A stretch of 50,043 nt of DNA, taken from positions 1 through 50,043 of the IMG/VR virus record IMGVR_UViG_3300043410_001172; one strand, 5' to 3'. Of the stretch, positions 15,183 to 45,000 are shown one piece after another. This DNA is from a virus. A model generated the notes under the pieces. The model had not been told where the DNA came from. It ran no database searches and saw only the letters and a list, made by a program, of their open reading frames with translations. The position numbers and the translations under genes are program-made. Position 1 is the stretch's first letter. Each line of letters starts with the position of its first letter.

Positions 15183-16409
15183 ATGACCGATGAAACCAAA
15201 TCATTAAAATACTGTCACTTTTGCGGTAACAGTAAAGAGAGTGTTAAGAAACTCATTGTTGGTAACGATGTTGCCATTTGTAATGAGTGTGTTGACCTTT
15301 GCAAAGGATTGATTGATGATGAATCTTTTGATGCAGTAGAGACAACTCCACAACAAGATCCACAGTCAATCAAAGAGTACTTGGATCAACACATCATTGG
15401 TCAAGATGACGCTAAAATGGTATTGAGTGTCGCTATCTCAAATCACTATAAGCGTATCAATCATCCACCTACAGACTTAGAGATTCAAAAGGGTAACGTT
15501 CTTATCGTAGGACCCACTGGTTCAGGTAAAACATTACTTGCAAAGACAGCGGCTAAGTATCTTAAAGTTCCTTTTGTAGTCGCAGACGCTACAAGTTTAA
15601 CCGAAGCCGGTTATGTAGGTGATGACGTTGAATCAATGGTAACTATGTTGATTAACGCCGCAAATGGTGATATCAAACTAGCAGAGCGCGGTATCATTTT
15701 CGTTGACGAAATCGACAAAATCGCACGTAAGGGCGAATCAACTTCTATTACACGTGACGTATCAGGTGAGGGTGTTCAACAAGCGTTGCTAAAACTTGTT
15801 GAGGGCACAACTATCCGTGTCCCTAAAGAAGCAGGACGCAAGCATCCAGGTAATGAAATGAATGAAATCAACACGAAAGACATTCTATTCATTGCAGGTG
15901 GTGCGTTTGTTGGGTTGAAAGACGTTATCGCTAATCGAATGAACGGTACAAGCATTGGTTTCAATGCTAGCGTCAAGGATACTAAGGTCGAGGGCGAACT
16001 GAAAGAAGTATCACCTGACGACTTGACTAAGTTTGGTATGATTCCCGAGTTCATCGGACGTTTCACAACTACAGTTAGTATCAGTGAACTATCAAAAGAG
16101 CAGTTGATTCACATCCTAACCGATGTTAAGAACAACTATATCAGTCAGTACAAGTACTTGCTAAGTCTAGATGGGCTTGAATTGTCTTTCACAGAGGATG
16201 CGCTAGACCAAATCGCTGAAAATACTCTAGCATTGAAGACAGGAGCACGTGGATTACACACTGAGATTGAGCGTGTGTTGATGTGTCACATGTATCATAC
16301 TAGAGAATACAAAGAAAATAACATTACCAAGCTAAATATAGACAGAGATTTAGTTTTGGAGCCGAGACCAACATATGAGCAGAAAAGGAAGACGGGTACA
16401 GGTAACTGA
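15183..16409 (+). CDS. clpX: ATP-dependent Clp protease unfoldase ClpX
   Basis: Full-length ClpX (408 residues; E. coli 424), which unfolds proteins and feeds them to ClpP. All functional elements are visible: N-terminal zinc domain with Cys11, Cys14, Cys33, Cys36; Walker A GPTGSGKT (110-117); pore loop GYVG (143-146); Walker B FVDEID (173-178); RKH loop (219-221); the ClpP-docking IGF tripeptide (258-260); and sensor-2 GARG (354-357). It therefore looks able to bind ClpP. The C-terminal 30 residues differ from bacterial ClpX. Its 3' end overlaps the bS21 gene by 35 bases, tying the two together. Ribosome site GGGGATAAG. Confidence 0.97.
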   Translation: MTDETKSLKYCHFCGNSKESVKKLIVGNDVAICNECVDLCKGLIDDESFDAVETTPQQDPQSIKEYLDQHIIGQDDAKMVLSVAISNHYKRINHPPTDLEIQKGNVLIVGPTGSGKTLLAKTAAKYLKVPFVVADATSLTEAGYVGDDVESMVTMLINAANGDIKLAERGIIFVDEIDKIARKGESTSITRDVSGEGVQQALLKLVEGTTIRVPKEAGRKHPGNEMNEINTKDILFIAGGAFVGLKDVIANRMNGTSIGFNASVKDTKVEGELKEVSPDDLTKFGMIPEFIGRFTTTVSISELSKEQLIHILTDVKNNYISQYKYLLSLDGLELSFTEDALDQIAENTLALKTGARGLHTEIERVLMCHMYHTREYKENNITKLNIDRDLVLEPRPTYEQKRKTGTGN

Positions 16410-16702: not shown

Positions 16703-18586
16703 ATGAGCAAAGTCATCGGTATCGACTTGGGTACCACAAATTCATGCGTAGCCGTTATCGAAAACGGAATCCCCAAAGTAATTGAAAACTCAGAAGGTGC
16801 TAGAACAACACCCTCAATCGTTGCCTACGCAAACGATGAAATCTTGGTAGGTGCAGCCGCAAAACGCCAAGCAGTTACAAACCCAAAGAATACAGTATAC
16901 GCCGCAAAGCGTTTAATCGGTCGTAAGTATGCCGAAGAAGCTGTACAAAAAGACATTGACTTGATGCCATACAAAATCGTTAAGAATGATAACGGTGATG
17001 CATGGGTTCAAGTAAACGAAGATAAGTTAGCACCCCCACAGATTAGTGCCGAAGTCTTGCGTAAGATGAAGAAGACCGCAGAGGACTATCTAGGTCATGA
17101 AGTCACACAAGCTGTTATTACAGTTCCTGCGTACTTCAATGATAGTCAACGTCAAGCAACGAAAGATGCTGGTCGTATTGCAGGTCTAGAAGTTTTACGT
17201 ATCATTAACGAGCCCACAGCTGCCGCTCTAGCATACGGCGTGGATAAACAAGATAAAAAGGATCGCAAGGTCGCAGTGTATGACTTAGGTGGTGGTACGT
17301 TTGACGTATCTATCATTGAGTTAGCGGACGTTGATGGTGACAAGCAAATTGAAGTACTTAGTACCAATGGCGACACTTTCTTGGGTGGTGAAGACTTTGA
17401 CCAACGCATCATGGACTTCTTGGTCGCTGAGTTCTTGAAAGAGAACGGCATTGATTTGACTAAAGATGTATTGGCATTGCAACGTTTGAAGGAAGCCGCG
17501 GAAAAAGCAAAGATTGAATTAAGTAGTTCGGCCCAGACAGACGTTAACTTGCCATACGTTACAGCAGATTCAAGTGGTCCTAAGCACTTGAACGTGAAAT
17601 TGACACGTGCTAAGTTTGAGTCTCTAGTTGATGAACTAATCCAACGTAGTCTTGTTCCATGTAAACAAGCTATGAAAGACGCAGGGGTTAACCCATCTGA
17701 CATTGACGAAGTTATCTTAGTAGGTGGCATGACACGTATGCCTAAAGTACAGGAAGCAGTTGAATCATTGTTTGGTAAAGCTCCTCGTAAGGATGTTAAC
17801 CCAGATGAAGCAGTTGCATCCGGTGCAGCTATTCAAGGTGCTGTGTTGAGCGGCGACCGTAAAGACGTTTTGTTGCTTGACGTTACCCCACTATCATTGG
17901 GTATCGAAACAATGGGTGGAGTATTCACTAAAGTTATTCAGAAGAATACAACAATCCCAACTAAGGCTTCACAGACTTTCAGTACTGCGGATGATAATCA
18001 ACCAGCAGTTACAATCAAAGTTGGTCAAGGTGAACGTGAAATGTTCCAGTACAACAAGACACTAGGTGAGTTCAACTTAGATGGTATTGCACCCGCGCCA
18101 CGCGGTATTCCTCAAATCGAAGTTACATTTGATATTGACGCAAACGGTATCATGCACATCAGTGCTAAAGACAAAGGTACCGGTAAAGAGAACAAGATTA
18201 CTATCAAATCTAATTCAGGCTTATCTGAGACTGAGATTCAACAGATGGTCAAAGACGCTGAGGATAATGCCGAAGCAGATAAGAAACAAGTTGAATTGAT
18301 CCAAGCACGTAATGGTGCTGAAGGTACATACAACAACTTTAAGAAAGACTTTGACGCACACAAGGACGAAGTCACAGAAGAAGAACGTACTAAGGCAGAA
18401 GAAGCATTGAATGCTGTACAAGAGGCAATCAAAGGCGATGATGTTGAGGCTATCAACAAAGCTAATACTGAATTGTATCAAGCAATCAGCCCAATCACTG
18501 CTAAGAAGTTTGAAGCCGAACAAAAGGCTAACGAATCTAAGACAGATGATAATGTCGAAGATGTTGAGGTTAAAGAAACAAAGTAA
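16703..18586 (+). CDS. dnaK: Molecular chaperone DnaK (Hsp70)
   Basis: Full-length Hsp70 (627 residues; E. coli 638). It starts [15 protein letters not shown], with phosphate loop GTTNS, the second phosphate motif [11 protein letters not shown] (about residue 193), adenosine motif VGGMTRMP (about 336), the interdomain linker [13 protein letters not shown] (about 390) and a complete substrate-binding domain and helical lid ending EDVEVKETK. Sequence blocks are close to beta/gamma-proteobacterial DnaK. No DnaJ or GrpE partner is in the window, so it would use host cochaperones or ones encoded elsewhere. Strong AAAGGAG ribosome site; late box and structured leader upstream. Confidence 0.98.
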
Positions 18587-18651: not shown

Positions 18652-19098
18652 ATGAGCAATAGAGAATTAACACTAAGAGCGTTGGACATTCCAACTATTC
18701 ACAAATTTGGGGTCGGCTTTGACCAAATGTTTGACGAACTAATGCGTGTAACATCACGCCAGTCTACAAACTATCCCCCACACAACATTCTAAAAGTTGA
18801 TGAAAACAACTTTGTCGTACAACTTGCAGTAGCAGGTTTCGATGAAGGTGATGTTGATATTCAAGTAGAAGGTCGTATCCTATCAATCATCGGTAGCTCA
18901 AAGAAAGACAACAAGTACGGTGCTGAATATCTAATCCAAGGTATCAGTATGCGTGATTTTGAACGTACATTCACTTTAGCAGAACACGTTGAAGTTAAGA
19001 GTGCCGAAGTCACAAATGGTATTTTGTCAATCGAATTGGAAAGAATTGTTCCGGTAGAAAATCTTCCAAAGAAGATTGACATTAAGTACAACAAGTGA
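18652..19098 (+). CDS. Small heat-shock protein (Hsp20/IbpA type)
   Basis: A 148-residue alpha-crystallin-domain chaperone that holds unfolding proteins for refolding by DnaK. The N-terminal GFDQMFDEL (about residues 22-30) and NYPPHNI (about 41-47) are typical of IbpA-class proteins. The crystallin core runs from about 45 to 140, with DFERTFTLAEHV and the conserved NGILSIEL strand (about 122-129). Hsp20 is known from T4-like cyanophages. It lies directly after dnaK with a related leader, so the pair is probably co-regulated. Confidence 0.95.
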   Translation: MSNRELTLRALDIPTIHKFGVGFDQMFDELMRVTSRQSTNYPPHNILKVDENNFVVQLAVAGFDEGDVDIQVEGRILSIIGSSKKDNKYGAEYLIQGISMRDFERTFTLAEHVEVKSAEVTNGILSIELERIVPVENLPKKIDIKYNK

Positions 19099-21033: not shown

Positions 21034-22116
21034 TTATTTGATGTTTGGGTTCGCTACTACGTTCCCGTTCACATCAACGAGCACAACATCTTTAGTACCA
21101 GACTTACCGATACCACGAGTTAATGTAGCGCCCAGAGTACGCAATCCTGGGATAGGGTTGCTACGTGTACTGTCGTTACGAATCAACCAAACCATCATGT
21201 GACTTGTAGGAATCTCACTTGCGTTTCTGATAACCGCATGTGCTTTGATAGTGATGTTGTTACCTTGGCATACAAAGTGTTCTTCTTTGAAAGTCTGAAT
21301 AACGATACCACCGTCTGGGTTCAAGTCAGCACCAAAGATAGCATTCAATGCTTCTTCCGGAGTAGGCTCAACAACGATTTCCTTGCTTAATTTGTAAACA
21401 GGAGTCTCTTGACCTGTGCGTTTGTTAGTCTTAGAACCGATCTGATTCAATGACACAACGCCCTTTTTGACTAGCTTATCGATGATAGCTTTAGCACGTT
21501 CCCCGAATAGAGTATCAGCACTTTCCCATGTATCTGCATCAAGTTGTTTTAAACTGATTGGCAATCGGCCCTTTTTACCAACCACGATAGCGTCAGACTT
21601 TTTACGTCCTACAACATCTTTACCTACTAACTCAACTGATGTAGCGTTGGCCATGCTCAACTTGTAACCACGGTCGTCAACGAATGTAACGTCAACGCTA
21701 CCGTACTGTTTGATAAGTTTCTCTAGCATGTTCTTTAGGTTAGCTTCATTAGCAACACCCGCTGACTTTTCGCCCTGTTTACCCACATCCTTCACAACGA
21801 TACCAATCCCGATATTTGGGAAAATGATGCCACCGCGACTGCTAAGTGACTTGTCTGGGCTGTAAGTTGGCTTCTCTGCTGCCATTGACTTTTGCAGCTT
21901 GATTAGTAACCCTTTTAGCACCTCGTCACGGTACTCGTTTTTGTTCTGCCCTGCGGGGATTTCAACCAAAACGTGAAGTACGTTTCCAACGGGCTTAATG
22001 TCGCTGTAACCCGCATTCATAATGGCTGCTTGAACAGTAGCCTTATTTGCTGAGGGTTGGGCAACTGGTGCGGGCGCACGTTCAGCCAAAGTAGTTGCAA
22101 ATTCCATGTATCTCAT
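21034..22116 (-). CDS. Late protein with possible PD-(D/E)XK-like core (360 aa)
   Basis: Starts MRYMEFATTLAE, like the short N-terminal targeting peptides of T4 internal head proteins. The middle has KKSDAIVV then LPISLKQ and WESAD (about residues 185-215), a layout seen in some restriction-endonuclease-like folds where an Asp precedes a [I/L]SLK strand. I hold this as possible only. The C-terminal third (about 270-360) is beta-rich. The ATG at 22116 is preferred; an upstream in-frame TTG at 22131 has no ribosome site. Late box on the minus strand at 22168-22175. Confidence 0.6.
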   Translation of the reverse strand: MRYMEFATTLAERAPAPVAQPSANKATVQAAIMNAGYSDIKPVGNVLHVLVEIPAGQNKNEYRDEVLKGLLIKLQKSMAAEKPTYSPDKSLSSRGGIIFPNIGIGIVVKDVGKQGEKSAGVANEANLKNMLEKLIKQYGSVDVTFVDDRGYKLSMANATSVELVGKDVVGRKKSDAIVVGKKGRLPISLKQLDADTWESADTLFGERAKAIIDKLVKKGVVSLNQIGSKTNKRTGQETPVYKLSKEIVVEPTPEEALNAIFGADLNPDGGIVIQTFKEEHFVCQGNNITIKAHAVIRNASEIPTSHMMVWLIRNDSTRSNPIPGLRTLGATLTRGIGKSGTKDVVLVDVNGNVVANPNIK

Positions 22117-22167
22117 GTAAAATTCTCTCAAGTAGTTAATGAAGTGATTATTGTATCACCGATTTAG

Positions 22168-22198: not shown

Positions 22199-22795
22199 AT
22201 GAGTTTAGTCCCTATTGTCGTAGAAACAACAGCCAAAGGTGAGCGTAGTTACGACATTTATTCACGTTTGCTACGTGACCGCGTCATTCTTTTAGAGGGT
22301 GAAGTTCATGACCACATGGCGAATTTGATTGTCGCCCAACTACTTTTCTTGGAGTCAGAGGATGCTACTAAAGACATTAGTATGTATATTAACTCGCCTG
22401 GCGGGTCAGTCACGGCGGGGATGGCGATATACGATTGTATGCAATTCATTGGTCCCGATGTGCAAACAATTGTTATGGGGCAGGCATGTTCTATGGGTAG
22501 TTTACTCGCACAAGCGGGAGCGCCAGGCAAAAGGTTTATGCTCCCCAATGCACGCCACATGATTCATCAGCCCTCTGGTGGCGCACGTGGTATGCAAAGT
22601 GACATTGAAATCAGTTATAAAGAAATCACCTACTTGAAAAAGCGTTTGACTGAAATCTACGTTGAACACAATTCAAAGGGCAAGACCTACGCTGAGTTTG
22701 AGAAGGACATGGATCGTGATACATTCATGTCGGCACAGCAAGCGTTGGAATACGGTTTGATTGATAAGATTGTTTCTAAGCGCACTCAGTCTTAA
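22199..22795 (+). CDS. clpP: ClpP serine protease
   Basis: A 198-residue ClpP with the full catalytic triad: Ser98 in GQACSMGS, His123 in MIHQPSGG and Asp174 in DRDTF. The N-terminus [23 protein letters not shown] region corresponds to the mature E. coli enzyme, so the propeptide is absent. Oxyanion-region glycines [11 protein letters not shown] (about 64-74) are intact. With the IGF-bearing ClpX encoded 6 kb upstream, a complete phage ClpXP is possible. The two genes are not adjacent, unlike in bacteria. Ribosome site AAAGGATAG. Confidence 0.97.
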
Positions 22796-30655: not shown

Positions 30656-31018
30656 TCACTTTTTAAGAATAGACCAGACTTTTTCTTTTTCAATAATTTC
30701 GGCTTCTAGCTCCATATATAACTTACGCAAGCCGCGGAGTTGTTCCCATTTTTCTTCTAGTTCTTCATTTGGGTGCAAGATAGCTAACCGTTCTTCTATC
30801 TTTTCTAGTGATTCTTTGAGACTTTTACCCTGAACCTTTATGTCACCCAAAAAGTTTGCGTCCTCTTCAAACTCTGAGTTACCCTTAACTTGTAATGTAT
30901 TGGGCGATAGATTTGATGAGCCATTTGCTGAGACTGTAGCCCATGCTGTGTTAGTAGCCGAACCGGCTGCAAGTGTATACGTAGTTGATGTAGATGGGTA
31001 GTTAATAAGATATGACAT
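30656..31018 (-). CDS. Phage structural protein with C-terminal coiled coil (120 aa)
   Basis: A Ser/Thr-rich beta N-terminus (about residues 1-40), then LQVKGNSEFEEDANFLGDIKVQGKSL and a coiled coil with EERLAILHPNEELEEKWEQL and ELEAEIIEKEKVWSILKK at the end. This matches a structural/tail-associated family seen in T4-like marine phages. Overlaps the previous stop by one base. Confidence 0.75.
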   Translation of the reverse strand: MSYLINYPSTSTTYTLAAGSATNTAWATVSANGSSNLSPNTLQVKGNSEFEEDANFLGDIKVQGKSLKESLEKIEERLAILHPNEELEEKWEQLRGLRKLYMELEAEIIEKEKVWSILKK

Positions 31019-31191
31019 TAGTTACTTTTGGTTACAATGATCCTACCCTGATCGTCTTTGCTAAAGTCTACGGTATCTCCCTCTTTCAATCCCATTTGTT
31101 TAAGTAACATGGGTGGTAGTGGAATGATGATATCACCGGTCTCAGGATCTTCCTGAGTAATAATCTCATAGCTGTCAGGTGTATTGCTCAT
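31018..31191 (-). CDS. AbrB/SpoVT-like small protein (57 aa)
   Basis: IIIPLPPMLLKQMGLKEGDTV (about residues 21-41) followed by IIVTK is the swapped-hairpin AbrB/MazE-type DNA-binding pattern (proline, helix, GxKEGD, strand). It could be a regulator or antitoxin-like protein; no toxin gene is adjacent. It overlaps the next gene start by one base (TAATG). Confidence 0.7.
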   Translation of the reverse strand: MSNTPDSYEIITQEDPETGDIIIPLPPMLLKQMGLKEGDTVDFSKDDQGRIIVTKSN

Positions 31192-31243: not shown

Positions 31244-31906
31244 TTAAACGTTCATCACCGTTACGTATTGTTTGTAATTCTCAAACCTGTCTTTCAACCC
31301 ACGCAATGCCGGGTTGATAAGTTTGGTTACAGTAGTTGTGTCGTTGAAGTTAGCGACATTTGGTTTAACTCTAGTCTTCCAGTACCATACTGCAATTCTA
31401 GCAGCTACTTCAGGCTTAGCAGCCATTTCAGGATGCTGTTCTAATGGCAAGTTTAGTGCTTGTCCTGCCATGCGATAGTTATCACGTCCGGTTATCTGAA
31501 TGTAGCCTCTACCGTGATATTTTGCTCCGTCTCCGGGCTTTTTGTTTCCTAGAATTCTTGCTTTTGCAGGTGCGAACTTAGGATCATAATGCTGTGCAAA
31601 ATACTGTGCTCCACCAATTTCCTTCATACGGGAGAAATCAGCAGATTCGTGCTTTACTTGAGCCATAAACTGTGCTAGTTCACGGCCCTTAATTCCAGAG
31701 CGGATAGCAGTGCGTTGAACTAAGTCCTCAGCGTTTGTGTTCATGCTAATGTTTGTAGTCTCAATTCCAACGTTAGGTGCATATTGCTGTGCGTGTTTTT
31801 TTGGTTTTGCTTGAGCAACACCGGAAGCTGCCATTGCACCGGCACCCAAAGCACCTAAAAAGCCCCTACGGCTCATATCTTCACTAACAAACTCTTTTGC
31901 TCTCAT
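31244..31906 (-). CDS. GH19-type endolysin with twin-arginine signal-like N-terminus (220 aa)
   Basis: The C-terminal 150 residues fit the GH19 chitinase/lysozyme fold: KHESADFSRM with the acid Glu (about residues 84-93), then HGRGYIQITGRDNYRMAGQAL (about 134-154) and ARIAVWYWKTR. The N-terminus is MRAKEFVSED, then SRRGFLGALGAG (residues 12-23) with an Ala-rich stretch ending in AQA, a textbook Tat signal. MRAKEFVSED alone resembles the capsid-targeting peptides of T4 internal proteins. The ATG at 31906 lies five bases after a late box. Likely peptidoglycan cleavage at lysis or entry. Confidence 0.8.
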   Translation of the reverse strand: MRAKEFVSEDMSRRGFLGALGAGAMAASGVAQAKPKKHAQQYAPNVGIETTNISMNTNAEDLVQRTAIRSGIKGRELAQFMAQVKHESADFSRMKEIGGAQYFAQHYDPKFAPAKARILGNKKPGDGAKYHGRGYIQITGRDNYRMAGQALNLPLEQHPEMAAKPEVAARIAVWYWKTRVKPNVANFNDTTTVTKLINPALRGLKDRFENYKQYVTVMNV

Positions 31907-31931: not shown

Positions 31932-31939
31932 TATTTATA
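31932..31939 (-). promoter_or_regulatory. T4-late-type promoter TATAAATA (minus)
   Basis: A perfect T4 late box on the minus strand, 20 bases upstream of the GATAAATA box. It would give a leader of about 20 bases; the only AGGA is too far from the ATG to help. Confidence 0.55.
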
Positions 31940-32018: not shown

Positions 32019-32564
32019 ATGGCAGAAGTAAAAGCAGAGGTGAAACCTCTAACACGTTCAGAACGTGAAGCACAGATTAAAGACAAAGCAGGTCTAGTTA
32101 TCGTTATTATGGCGTTATTCATGGCTGTAACAACGTACTTTTCTAACCAGCATTCTGGTGCCGCGATGAAGAACATGTTGAAGGCTACTGATACCTACGC
32201 ATTTTTCCAGTCAAAATCAATCAAGCAAGCAATCGCTGAAGGTCAACGTGACGACTATATCGCTCGTGGTGACAAGGCTAAAGCCGATAAACTACAAGCT
32301 AAAATTGACCGTTACGAAAGTGATCCTGAAAAGGGTGAGGGCAAGAAAGAGTTACTAGCAAAAGCACAAGCATTCGAGAAAGCACGTGACGATGCAGGTA
32401 AGCACAGCCCATGGCTAACATTCGCTTCAATGGCATTCCAACTAGCTATCGTTTTGTTGTCAGCATCTATCATTGCTGTTAACAACACTATGTACAAAGT
32501 TAGTGAAGTAGTTGCTGTTATTGGTGTATTGTTATTAAGCCAAGGCATCTGGCTCTGGTTCTAA
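32019..32564 (+). CDS. DUF4337-like membrane protein (181 aa)
   Basis: A hydrophobic segment at about residues 25-44, a helical region with AFFQSKSIKQAIAEGQRDD (about 61-79) and two further hydrophobic segments near the C-terminus (about 132-152 and 158-180). This order, especially YAFFQSKSIKQ, is the DUF4337 layout. Function unknown. Late promoter and good ribosome site; probably co-transcribed with the two membrane proteins that follow. Confidence 0.8.
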   Translation: MAEVKAEVKPLTRSEREAQIKDKAGLVIVIMALFMAVTTYFSNQHSGAAMKNMLKATDTYAFFQSKSIKQAIAEGQRDDYIARGDKAKADKLQAKIDRYESDPEKGEGKKELLAKAQAFEKARDDAGKHSPWLTFASMAFQLAIVLLSASIIAVNNTMYKVSEVVAVIGVLLLSQGIWLWF

Positions 32565-43636: not shown

Positions 43637-44470
43637 TTACCGAATTCGGTGTTTAGTGATGACTTTCTTCATGTCAATCATCATTTGGTCATACTTTTCT
43701 GGTTTGCCACCTACTGGTTTAAACGTGAATGAGTTTTTTAACCACTCTACCAGTTCGGGGTCAGCTAGTACTTGATTCAATGCTTTGTTCAACTTAACCC
43801 TATCTTGTTCAGGGAAAGTTTTGTATACTGCATAGCCAGTACCAGCTAGAACCTCATGCGTATGTATCACTTTCAACGATTCTTTGTGTGACTTCAAATA
43901 GGGATTAAAAGTAGTAGTCTCAATCATATCCACTGTGCCACTCAACAAGGCTAGTGTGGATTCACTATCTGATTTATAGTTGATTACTTGGGTGTCTGAG
44001 TTCTTTGGCGCTTCTGTAGTTATCAAATACTCTGATAGAGGATTACTAACACCTACGTTTACTTTGCCACTCAAACTATTCATCGAATCAAACTTAGAAT
44101 CACTTCTAGTGACCAACAACGATGATATGTATTGTGTGAGAACTAACCCCTTCAACTCATTGACAGGATCTATATCATGTTCCTTCATTAGGTATGCGTT
44201 CACTGCATAAACACTACCACCGTGTAAAATAACGTTAGGATCACGATGCGCTTCTTCAATGAATGCTCGGTAGGCGATCATAAGATTAGCACCAGGCTTG
44301 TTGAACACAACAAATGTGTCACCAGTTATCTTTCCTACTTCTTCAAATATTCTACGGGTTTGAACATCCGCCCCGGATCCAGCAGGGACACCGATAAAAA
44401 TCTTATATATCGTAGCATCTGCTGATAGTGATAGAAAACTAAGTAGGATTGCGATTATATATTTTGTCAT
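43637..44470 (-). CDS. Bug/TctC-family solute-binding protein (277 aa)
   Basis: A periplasmic binding protein of the tripartite tricarboxylate (Bug) family. A signal peptide (residues 1-19, ending SADA) precedes IFIGVPAGSGADVQTRRI (about 24-41), where the family has the ligand-binding PxGSGxD loop, then VVFNKPGANLMIAYRAF (about 52-68). C-terminal helices with FPEQDRVKLNKALNQVL complete the fold. In bacteria it captures small carboxylates for TctAB or sensors. Here it is alone in a phage early-region run, without a transporter. Starts in an ATGA overlap with 44467-45000. An unusual auxiliary gene; ligand unknown. Confidence 0.88.
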   Translation of the reverse strand: MTKYIIAILLSFLSLSADATIYKIFIGVPAGSGADVQTRRIFEEVGKITGDTFVVFNKPGANLMIAYRAFIEEAHRDPNVILHGGSVYAVNAYLMKEHDIDPVNELKGLVLTQYISSLLVTRSDSKFDSMNSLSGKVNVGVSNPLSEYLITTEAPKNSDTQVINYKSDSESTLALLSGTVDMIETTTFNPYLKSHKESLKVIHTHEVLAGTGYAVYKTFPEQDRVKLNKALNQVLADPELVEWLKNSFTFKPVGGKPEKYDQMMIDMKKVITKHRIR

Positions 44471-45000
44471 TGTGTCCAACTTGGTTGTGTGCGGTCACGC
44501 CAGTTAAACATGCGGCGCTTGTCACCGTTATAGTAATTGCGATACGACTGAATAGAATCGCCGGGAACCTTGTAAGCATCCGGCATCGCAGGTGTTGGTT
44601 GTGTAAAAACGCCCACTGGTATATTAGTAGGTGTACTAGACAGTGCAGGAATCAATCGCTCACATGCATGGACTTTCTTGTAACGGTGAGTATACTCGGT
44701 CATCAATTTCAACCAAAGGTCGTACAAGAATTCGTAATTCTGCTTTGACTGACGAACCCACACCGCTGATGGATGATTCACGTGAGTAGCACGATATAAC
44801 TCCAAGTCACGTGCATCAGGTAATACCAGCGTTGTTTGCTTACGACCTGACTTTGACAGTCCAACTTGAGGTGTGCCGTCAAGCACACGGTGAGTAGTAC
44901 TCAACAACTGAGCATACTCTAAAATCATTTTAACAACGTGCTTATCCACGTGCATTTCAGCACATGTTTTAGGATCAGCATCTAAGTAGAAAATGTTCAT
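44467..45000 (-). CDS. Conserved phage protein, YLDxDPK..CDKH family (177 aa)
   Basis: MNIFYLDADPKTCAEMHVDKHVVKMILEYAQLL (1-33) and ATHVNHPSAVWVRQSKQNYEFL (about 71-92), with AMPDAYK near the end, mark a very widespread phage/bacterial hypothetical family. Conserved Asp, His and Lys suggest an enzyme, but I cannot name the reaction. Confidence 0.85.
   Translation of the reverse strand: MNIFYLDADPKTCAEMHVDKHVVKMILEYAQLLSTTHRVLDGTPQVGLSKSGRKQTTLVLPDARDLELYRATHVNHPSAVWVRQSKQNYEFLYDLWLKLMTEYTHRYKKVHACERLIPALSSTPTNIPVGVFTQPTPAMPDAYKVPGDSIQSYRNYYNGDKRRMFNWRDRTQPSWTQ

Follow-up and report, generated by a model that had tools for sequence, protein, structure and literature searches.

Why should a phage endolysin-type enzyme begin with a sequence resembling a capsid-targeting peptide and continue with one resembling a twin-arginine translocation (Tat) signal? 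The question is raised by a minus-strand gene (31906..31244, stop codon at 31244-31246) in the viral DNA analyzed here, a fragment of 50,043 nucleotides (IMG/VR record IMGVR_UViG_3300043410_001172) that we call the window. The coding part (31247..31906) specifies a protein of 220 amino acids, and its start, the ATG at 31906, is consistent with the MRA.. starts among relatives. The N terminus is MRAKEFVSE-DM-SRRGFLGALGAGAMAASGVAQA, read continuously as MRAKEFVSED MSRRGFLGALGAGAMAASGVAQA, and is followed by a linker and a domain of glycoside hydrolase family 19 (GH19). The protein matches Pfam PF00182 (GH19) above the cutoff (E = 8e-12) and a PHROG endolysin family (2e-42), which bears out an earlier note, made from the letters alone, that had called it a GH19 endolysin-type protein. 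In an AlphaFold2 model based on 37 homologues, residues 57 to 218 (31253..31738, minus) form a confident domain, and the solved structures nearest to it belong to phage endolysins and chitinases of the GH19 family. The tail before residue 40 is disordered, with a low-confidence helix at residues 6 to 12 as its sole predicted element, and the linker (residues 34 to 56; 31739..31807, minus) is of low confidence, with a pLDDT below 50 up to residue 39. Two residues nine positions apart, E87 and E96, are invariant in the homologue comparison and align with the Glu pair of the SPN1S endolysin (4ok7); they are taken to be the catalytic pair, as in that endolysin family. Family profile, fold, and Glu pair are together those of a GH19 glycoside hydrolase.

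The surroundings of the gene were read as well. Divergent to it, on the plus strand, a gene at 32019..32564 encodes a membrane protein without assigned function, with 87% identity to that of a relative (L205:3734-4279). The T4 late-promoter box sequence, TATAAATA, occurs at 31932..31939 (minus), 26 to 33 bases before the GH19 start codon. We rejected it as a T4-like late promoter, as the window holds 2 copies against 2.3 expected and none was found upstream of 72 relatives; its presence is possibly due to chance. Directly downstream of the GH19 gene, a 57-aa open reading frame (31018-31191, minus) reads like an AbrB/MazE-type DNA-binding protein. Elsewhere in the window are genes that look ClpX-like (15183-16409), DnaK-like (16703-18586), small-heat-shock-like (18652-19098), and ClpP-like (22199-22795), named by reading, with PHROG matches for the first. 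The product of 43637-44479 (minus), like those of L003:10997-11956 and L001:9302-10306, reads like a TctC/Bug periplasmic solute-binding protein with a signal peptide.

The capsid-targeting-like tag, MRAKEFVSE, occupies residues 1 to 9 (31880..31906, minus), with a putative prohead-protease cut after E9 (VSE, then D). The T4 ipIII product, read from NC_000866, starts with MKTYQEFIAE. In T4, the first 10 residues of IPIII are enough for packaging, and gp21 cleaves after L/I-X-E (review, PMC9026906). We took relatives of the window GH19 from IMG/VR, many of them on contigs of 100 to 524 kb, and found that their GH19 proteins mostly start with MRAxEF(I/L/V)xE or a close variant. In the jumbo-phage loci of these relatives, 119 of 934 distinct open reading frames (~13%) have a start tag versus 9 of 3735 internal ATGs, a ratio somewhat inflated by the several candidate start codons permitted per frame. 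With a stricter pattern, 33 matches were obtained across 14 virus records, versus none for its backwards reading; the window has one match. Of the 119 tags, 96 have E at residue 9 and 1 has D; among the 96, residue 7 is I (51), L (33), or V (8), that is, I or L in 84. The VSE of the window, with V at residue 7, is a minority form, T4 preferring L or I there. Tagged neighbors of other kinds include NUDIX (1e-25), sigma-70 region 4, and amidoligase-type proteins and, with weak matches only, GNAT-like and ADP-ribosyltransferase-like ones, so that in the relatives' loci a short N-terminal tag ending in L/I-x-E is common to unrelated cargo, as in a capsid-targeting sequence (CTS).

A gp21-family protease (PF03420) is encoded in 8 of 13 relatives' contigs, and no prohead protease was recognized in the 50-kb window. 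From the tag counts, the pattern at residues 9 and 7, and this protease, the tag set in the relatives looks like that of the T4 internal proteins, extended to many enzymes. What places the window in the tagged group is its kinship, with 66% identity between its ATPase and that of a 364-kb relative and 87 to 90% identity between the gene at 32019 and genes of the relatives. We consider packaging of the GH19 enzyme into the virion highly probable. Capsid targeting, offered in the earlier note only as an alternative, has become the better-supported half of its proposal. No phage with a tagged GH19 was found in the annotated phage isolate collection, no convincing tag matches were seen in RaK2, Phosso, XaC1, Lu11, SCTP-2, and Motura, and the PaBG paper held nothing usable on virion proteomics of such tagged proteins.

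Several further tag-like features came to light. Runs of five or six consecutive genes, mostly with MRAxEF..E starts, occur at L070:1476-6922 and L290:413-3223; they are probably islands of virion-packaged proteins, several of them ADP-ribosyltransferase-like by eye. Four consecutive genes of Pseudomonas phage Lu11 (L183, 1169-4567) start with (M/V)(K/R)IQLAVA, and one of these MKIQLAVA-type genes is a homologue of the tagged L070:4241-5143 protein, perhaps revealing another capsid tag, in an isolate. The motif GVAEG, single or repeated within long tagged or core-like proteins (L003:2987-6328, L022:5703-8913, L070:5143-5907, and L073:7222-9237), possibly marks further prohead-protease sites. 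In the window itself, a frame at 21034-22131 (minus) has a tag-like start, MRYMEFATTLAE (22116..21034), a possible second capsid tag. This frame matches PHROG 12709 (function not assigned; 2e-32) and contains KKSDAIVV...PISLKQ, by eye like a PD-(D/E)XK nuclease core; it has no relatives among the fetched loci.

The second signal occupies residues 12 to 33 (31808..31873, minus), with RR at 13 and 14, a hydrophobic stretch, and AQA at 31 to 33. The window protein passes the NCBIfam Tat model TIGR01409 narrowly (17.1 bits; cutoff, 16.7), the L003 protein reaching 21.6, and stays below the cutoff of Pfam TAT_signal (15.2 versus 22.7), which is exceeded in L292 and L300. Twin-arginine consensus, h-region, AxA, and a score above the cutoff of a curated model, TIGR01409, are thus found together. 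Across the family, the segment preceding the GH19 linker exists in two forms. The RR form (26 distinct segments) has [STDN]RR[GN]F[LMA] and a G/A-rich stretch, and the W form (23 distinct segments) has a GWKDW-like motif and a similar stretch; about half of the homologues have the W form without RR. TIGR01409 matches 17 of 37 homologues (best, 1e-7) and 0 of 10 W-form homologues. In the RR form, R, R, and F are invariant and no K occurs, an invariance partly built in, since the class was defined by the RR motif itself. The telling points are for that reason the lack of K-containing intermediates in the remaining sequences and the AxA motif. AxA is present in 22 of the 26 RR segments, versus 10.9 in shuffles, and in 9 of 11, versus 5.5, after thinning at 80% identity (P = 0.0015), counts that, like those of RR, are based on related sequences; in the W form, it is at chance level. 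Among 80 GH19 loci of GTDB genomes, the RR segment was found in none except one obvious chance match. The twin-arginine signal described earlier is upheld by the TIGR01409 score and by its conservation in the 26 distinct homologues, though not by the Pfam cutoff, and we lean toward a working Tat signal in the window protein.

How the two signals relate is suggested by their spacing. The distance from the start codon to the RR motif ranges from 10 to 393 residues and is 84 to 393 residues in many relatives. Nevertheless, an [LIVM]xE site stands 1 to 2 residues before the RR motif in 25 of 26 cases and directly before the W-form segment in 23 of 23, while the background rate of such sites in 8-mers of these proteins is 8.5%. 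With hundreds of residues in front of it, a Tat signal should be inactive until cleavage, and a cut at [LIVM]xE would unmask it. The cargo units, as far as sequence tells, are also joined and split at cut sites: the domain fused upstream of GH19 in L013-L015 has a counterpart in L033 that is a separate tagged gene, 64% identical over its full 158 aa and ending where the cut site begins. Trimming of the precursor appears probable. Because the Tat segment sits deep inside fused homologues, directly behind a site of the prohead-protease type, the two signals can be read as consecutive steps; they had been presented as alternatives, which they need not be.

We investigated whether the composite leader occurs elsewhere using a DNA pattern of tag, E, two residues, and [ST]RRxF, with no hydrophobic stretch required, against 2.9 million viral contigs. 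Twenty stretches were found; in the leaders inspected, the residues that come next are G/A-rich and include at most one charge. The cargo comprises GH19 of more than one subfamily, a LysM and SLT transglycosylase protein, proteins without assigned family, and three Peptidase_M48 proteins (5e-9, 7e-12, and 8e-10). L302 carries an M48 gene and a GH19 gene in back-to-back arrangement, and both have leaders of their own. A scan with one M48 protein matched only itself. The recognizable cargo would meet its substrate in the envelope, which would fit Tat better than mere charge. Some jumbo phages may possess a mobile two-part leader that loads envelope enzymes (GH19, lytic transglycosylase, and M48 peptidase) into the head for injection and delivery by the Tat system of the new host, the Tat signal being masked in fused precursors until the prohead-protease cut; we put this forward tentatively, as somewhat short of an even chance.

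We propose that the window protein is cargo, an enzyme whose leader directs its delivery in two steps. Residues 1 to 9, as a T4-type CTS, would place the GH19 enzyme in the prohead core, where the prohead protease would cut after E9, leaving a mature protein that begins DMSRRGFLG... The enzyme would then enter the next cell by injection together with the DNA, and the host Tat system would recognize the exposed signal and move the protein, folded by then, to the periplasm. There, signal peptidase could cut after AQA, and the enzyme would act on peptidoglycan. This full chain, from packaging and capsid trimming to injection and Tat export, seems to us just a little likelier to be right than wrong. 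As for the timing of export, we see at best an even chance that the enzyme serves in the newly infected cell and not in the one that produced it.

The most serious competitor agrees on packaging and trimming and takes the second segment as a general membrane-contact or SAR-like element, its RR providing positive charge only, so that the enzyme is anchored at the inner membrane or slides into it. The two forms of the segment, RR and W, lie in the same place, and on the GH19-domain tree they have been exchanged at least 5 times, on well-supported branches; hence, RR is not essential to the role of the family. Either two delivery routes serve equally well, or the RR form is merely one way of contacting the membrane, and plain membrane contact might be enough. 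Both segments are also weakly hydrophobic and G/A-rich, like SAR domains (PMC9239132). Such a role, however, does not call for the full Tat consensus with invariant R, R, and F and no K, for an AxA excess in the RR form only, for Tat models that match RR members and not W members, or for the same RR leader on other cargo that reads as periplasmic. We regard it as rather unlikely.

Other phages carry internal-virion lysins, and the tag and protease that point to packaging would equally suit an entry lysin that cuts peptidoglycan during DNA ejection and is never exported, its hydrophobic segment helping to seat it in the entry channel. This explanation leaves the Tat consensus and the reuse of the leader on M48 and SLT cargo unaccounted for, and a lysozyme domain is already present in at least one relative (G007), within a 920-aa frame as long as a tail protein. 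The entry-lysin reading is unlikely in our judgment, and less probable than simple membrane contact. The same 920-aa frame is the only place where PF00959 was found, in one relative, and a T4-type lysozyme was accordingly rejected as the true lysis enzyme, a place that a plain GH19 fills.

This plain GH19 is a second enzyme of ~205 to 210 aa that has neither tag nor hydrophobic segment and is found in 9 of 9 large contigs of the relatives; none was found in the 50-kb window. In four contigs (L198, L205, L206, and L199), it is followed by genes with weak Rz-like and Rz1-like matches, and in some of these a capsid-tagged gene sits between the two spanin-like genes. Homologues of the divergent membrane-protein neighbor (32019..32564) also lie beside the plain endolysin and spanin genes in some relatives. 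A holin-dependent cytoplasmic endolysin has no targeting signal and belongs to a lysis cassette; the tagged GH19, with its leader, does not fit this type, and the plain paralogue of the relatives lacks a leader. From the plain GH19 of the large contigs, beside spanin-like genes in several, we conclude that the tagged GH19, on sequence grounds, is not the lysis endolysin of the relatives. The main idea of the earlier note, in which a Tat-exported endolysin lyses the producing cell with no holin and the tag is secondary, could appeal to the ordinary Tat position of RR in short forms (starting at residue 12 or 13) and to the single GH19 of the window, but it finds no support in the relatives and is very improbable, given their separate endolysin, an RR segment that in fused forms is internal and cannot act before cleavage, and a tag carried also by NUDIX, sigma-region-4, amidoligase-type, and other nonlysis proteins.

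If the two-step delivery holds, phage-injected proteins are not confined to the cytoplasm, and enzymes reach the envelope early in infection through the host export system for folded proteins. This delivery would also explain why the features of an injected enzyme are those of Tat and not of Sec, as the protein is complete on arrival. The sequence rule of tag, cut site, and signal would find virion-packaged effectors in uncultured jumbo phages and sort them by destination. Taken singly, capsid tags, prohead proteases, Tat signals, and GH19 lysins are familiar. A search of the open-access literature, a scope outside which most subscription papers fall, turned up neither Tat export of a phage endolysin nor a phage leader in which a capsid tag is coupled to a Tat signal.

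Known systems resemble parts of the proposed chain. The fold and the aligned Glu pair are those of the GH19 phage endolysins SPN1S (4ok7) and PWe2 (9ms7), but the window protein has a two-part leader, and its relatives keep a second, plain GH19. Like the SAR endolysins (Mu gp22, P1 Lyz, and phage 21 R), it combines a muralytic domain with a weakly hydrophobic stretch toward the N terminus. A SAR segment, however, is uncleaved and lies at the protein's own N terminus, whereas here a capsid tag and a protease site come first, the weakly hydrophobic segment is internal in many homologues, and the RR form has, in addition, the Tat consensus and an AxA excess. The segment shares [ST]RRxFL, the weakly hydrophobic stretch, and AxA with Tat signal peptides (TIGR01409 and PF10518), from which it differs in following a capsid tag and in being often internal in a precursor, where its exposure would require a phage protease. 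In the giant phages phiKZ and SPN3US, ejection proteins have propeptides that are cut after x-x-E by a gp21-like protease before ejection into the cell, but their tag and cut motif (A/S-x-E) are different, and the portion of that source consulted mentions no Tat-like signal for them (PMC5694885). There is also a likeness to the T4 internal proteins IPI, IPII, and IPIII and to Alt, in which an N-terminal CTS of ~10 residues ending in a gp21 cut site is placed on unrelated cargo, with a protease whose family is present in relatives of the window phage. The T4 proteins go to the cytoplasm, whereas here a Tat-like or W-type segment stands behind the cut site and the recognizable cargo consists of envelope enzymes.
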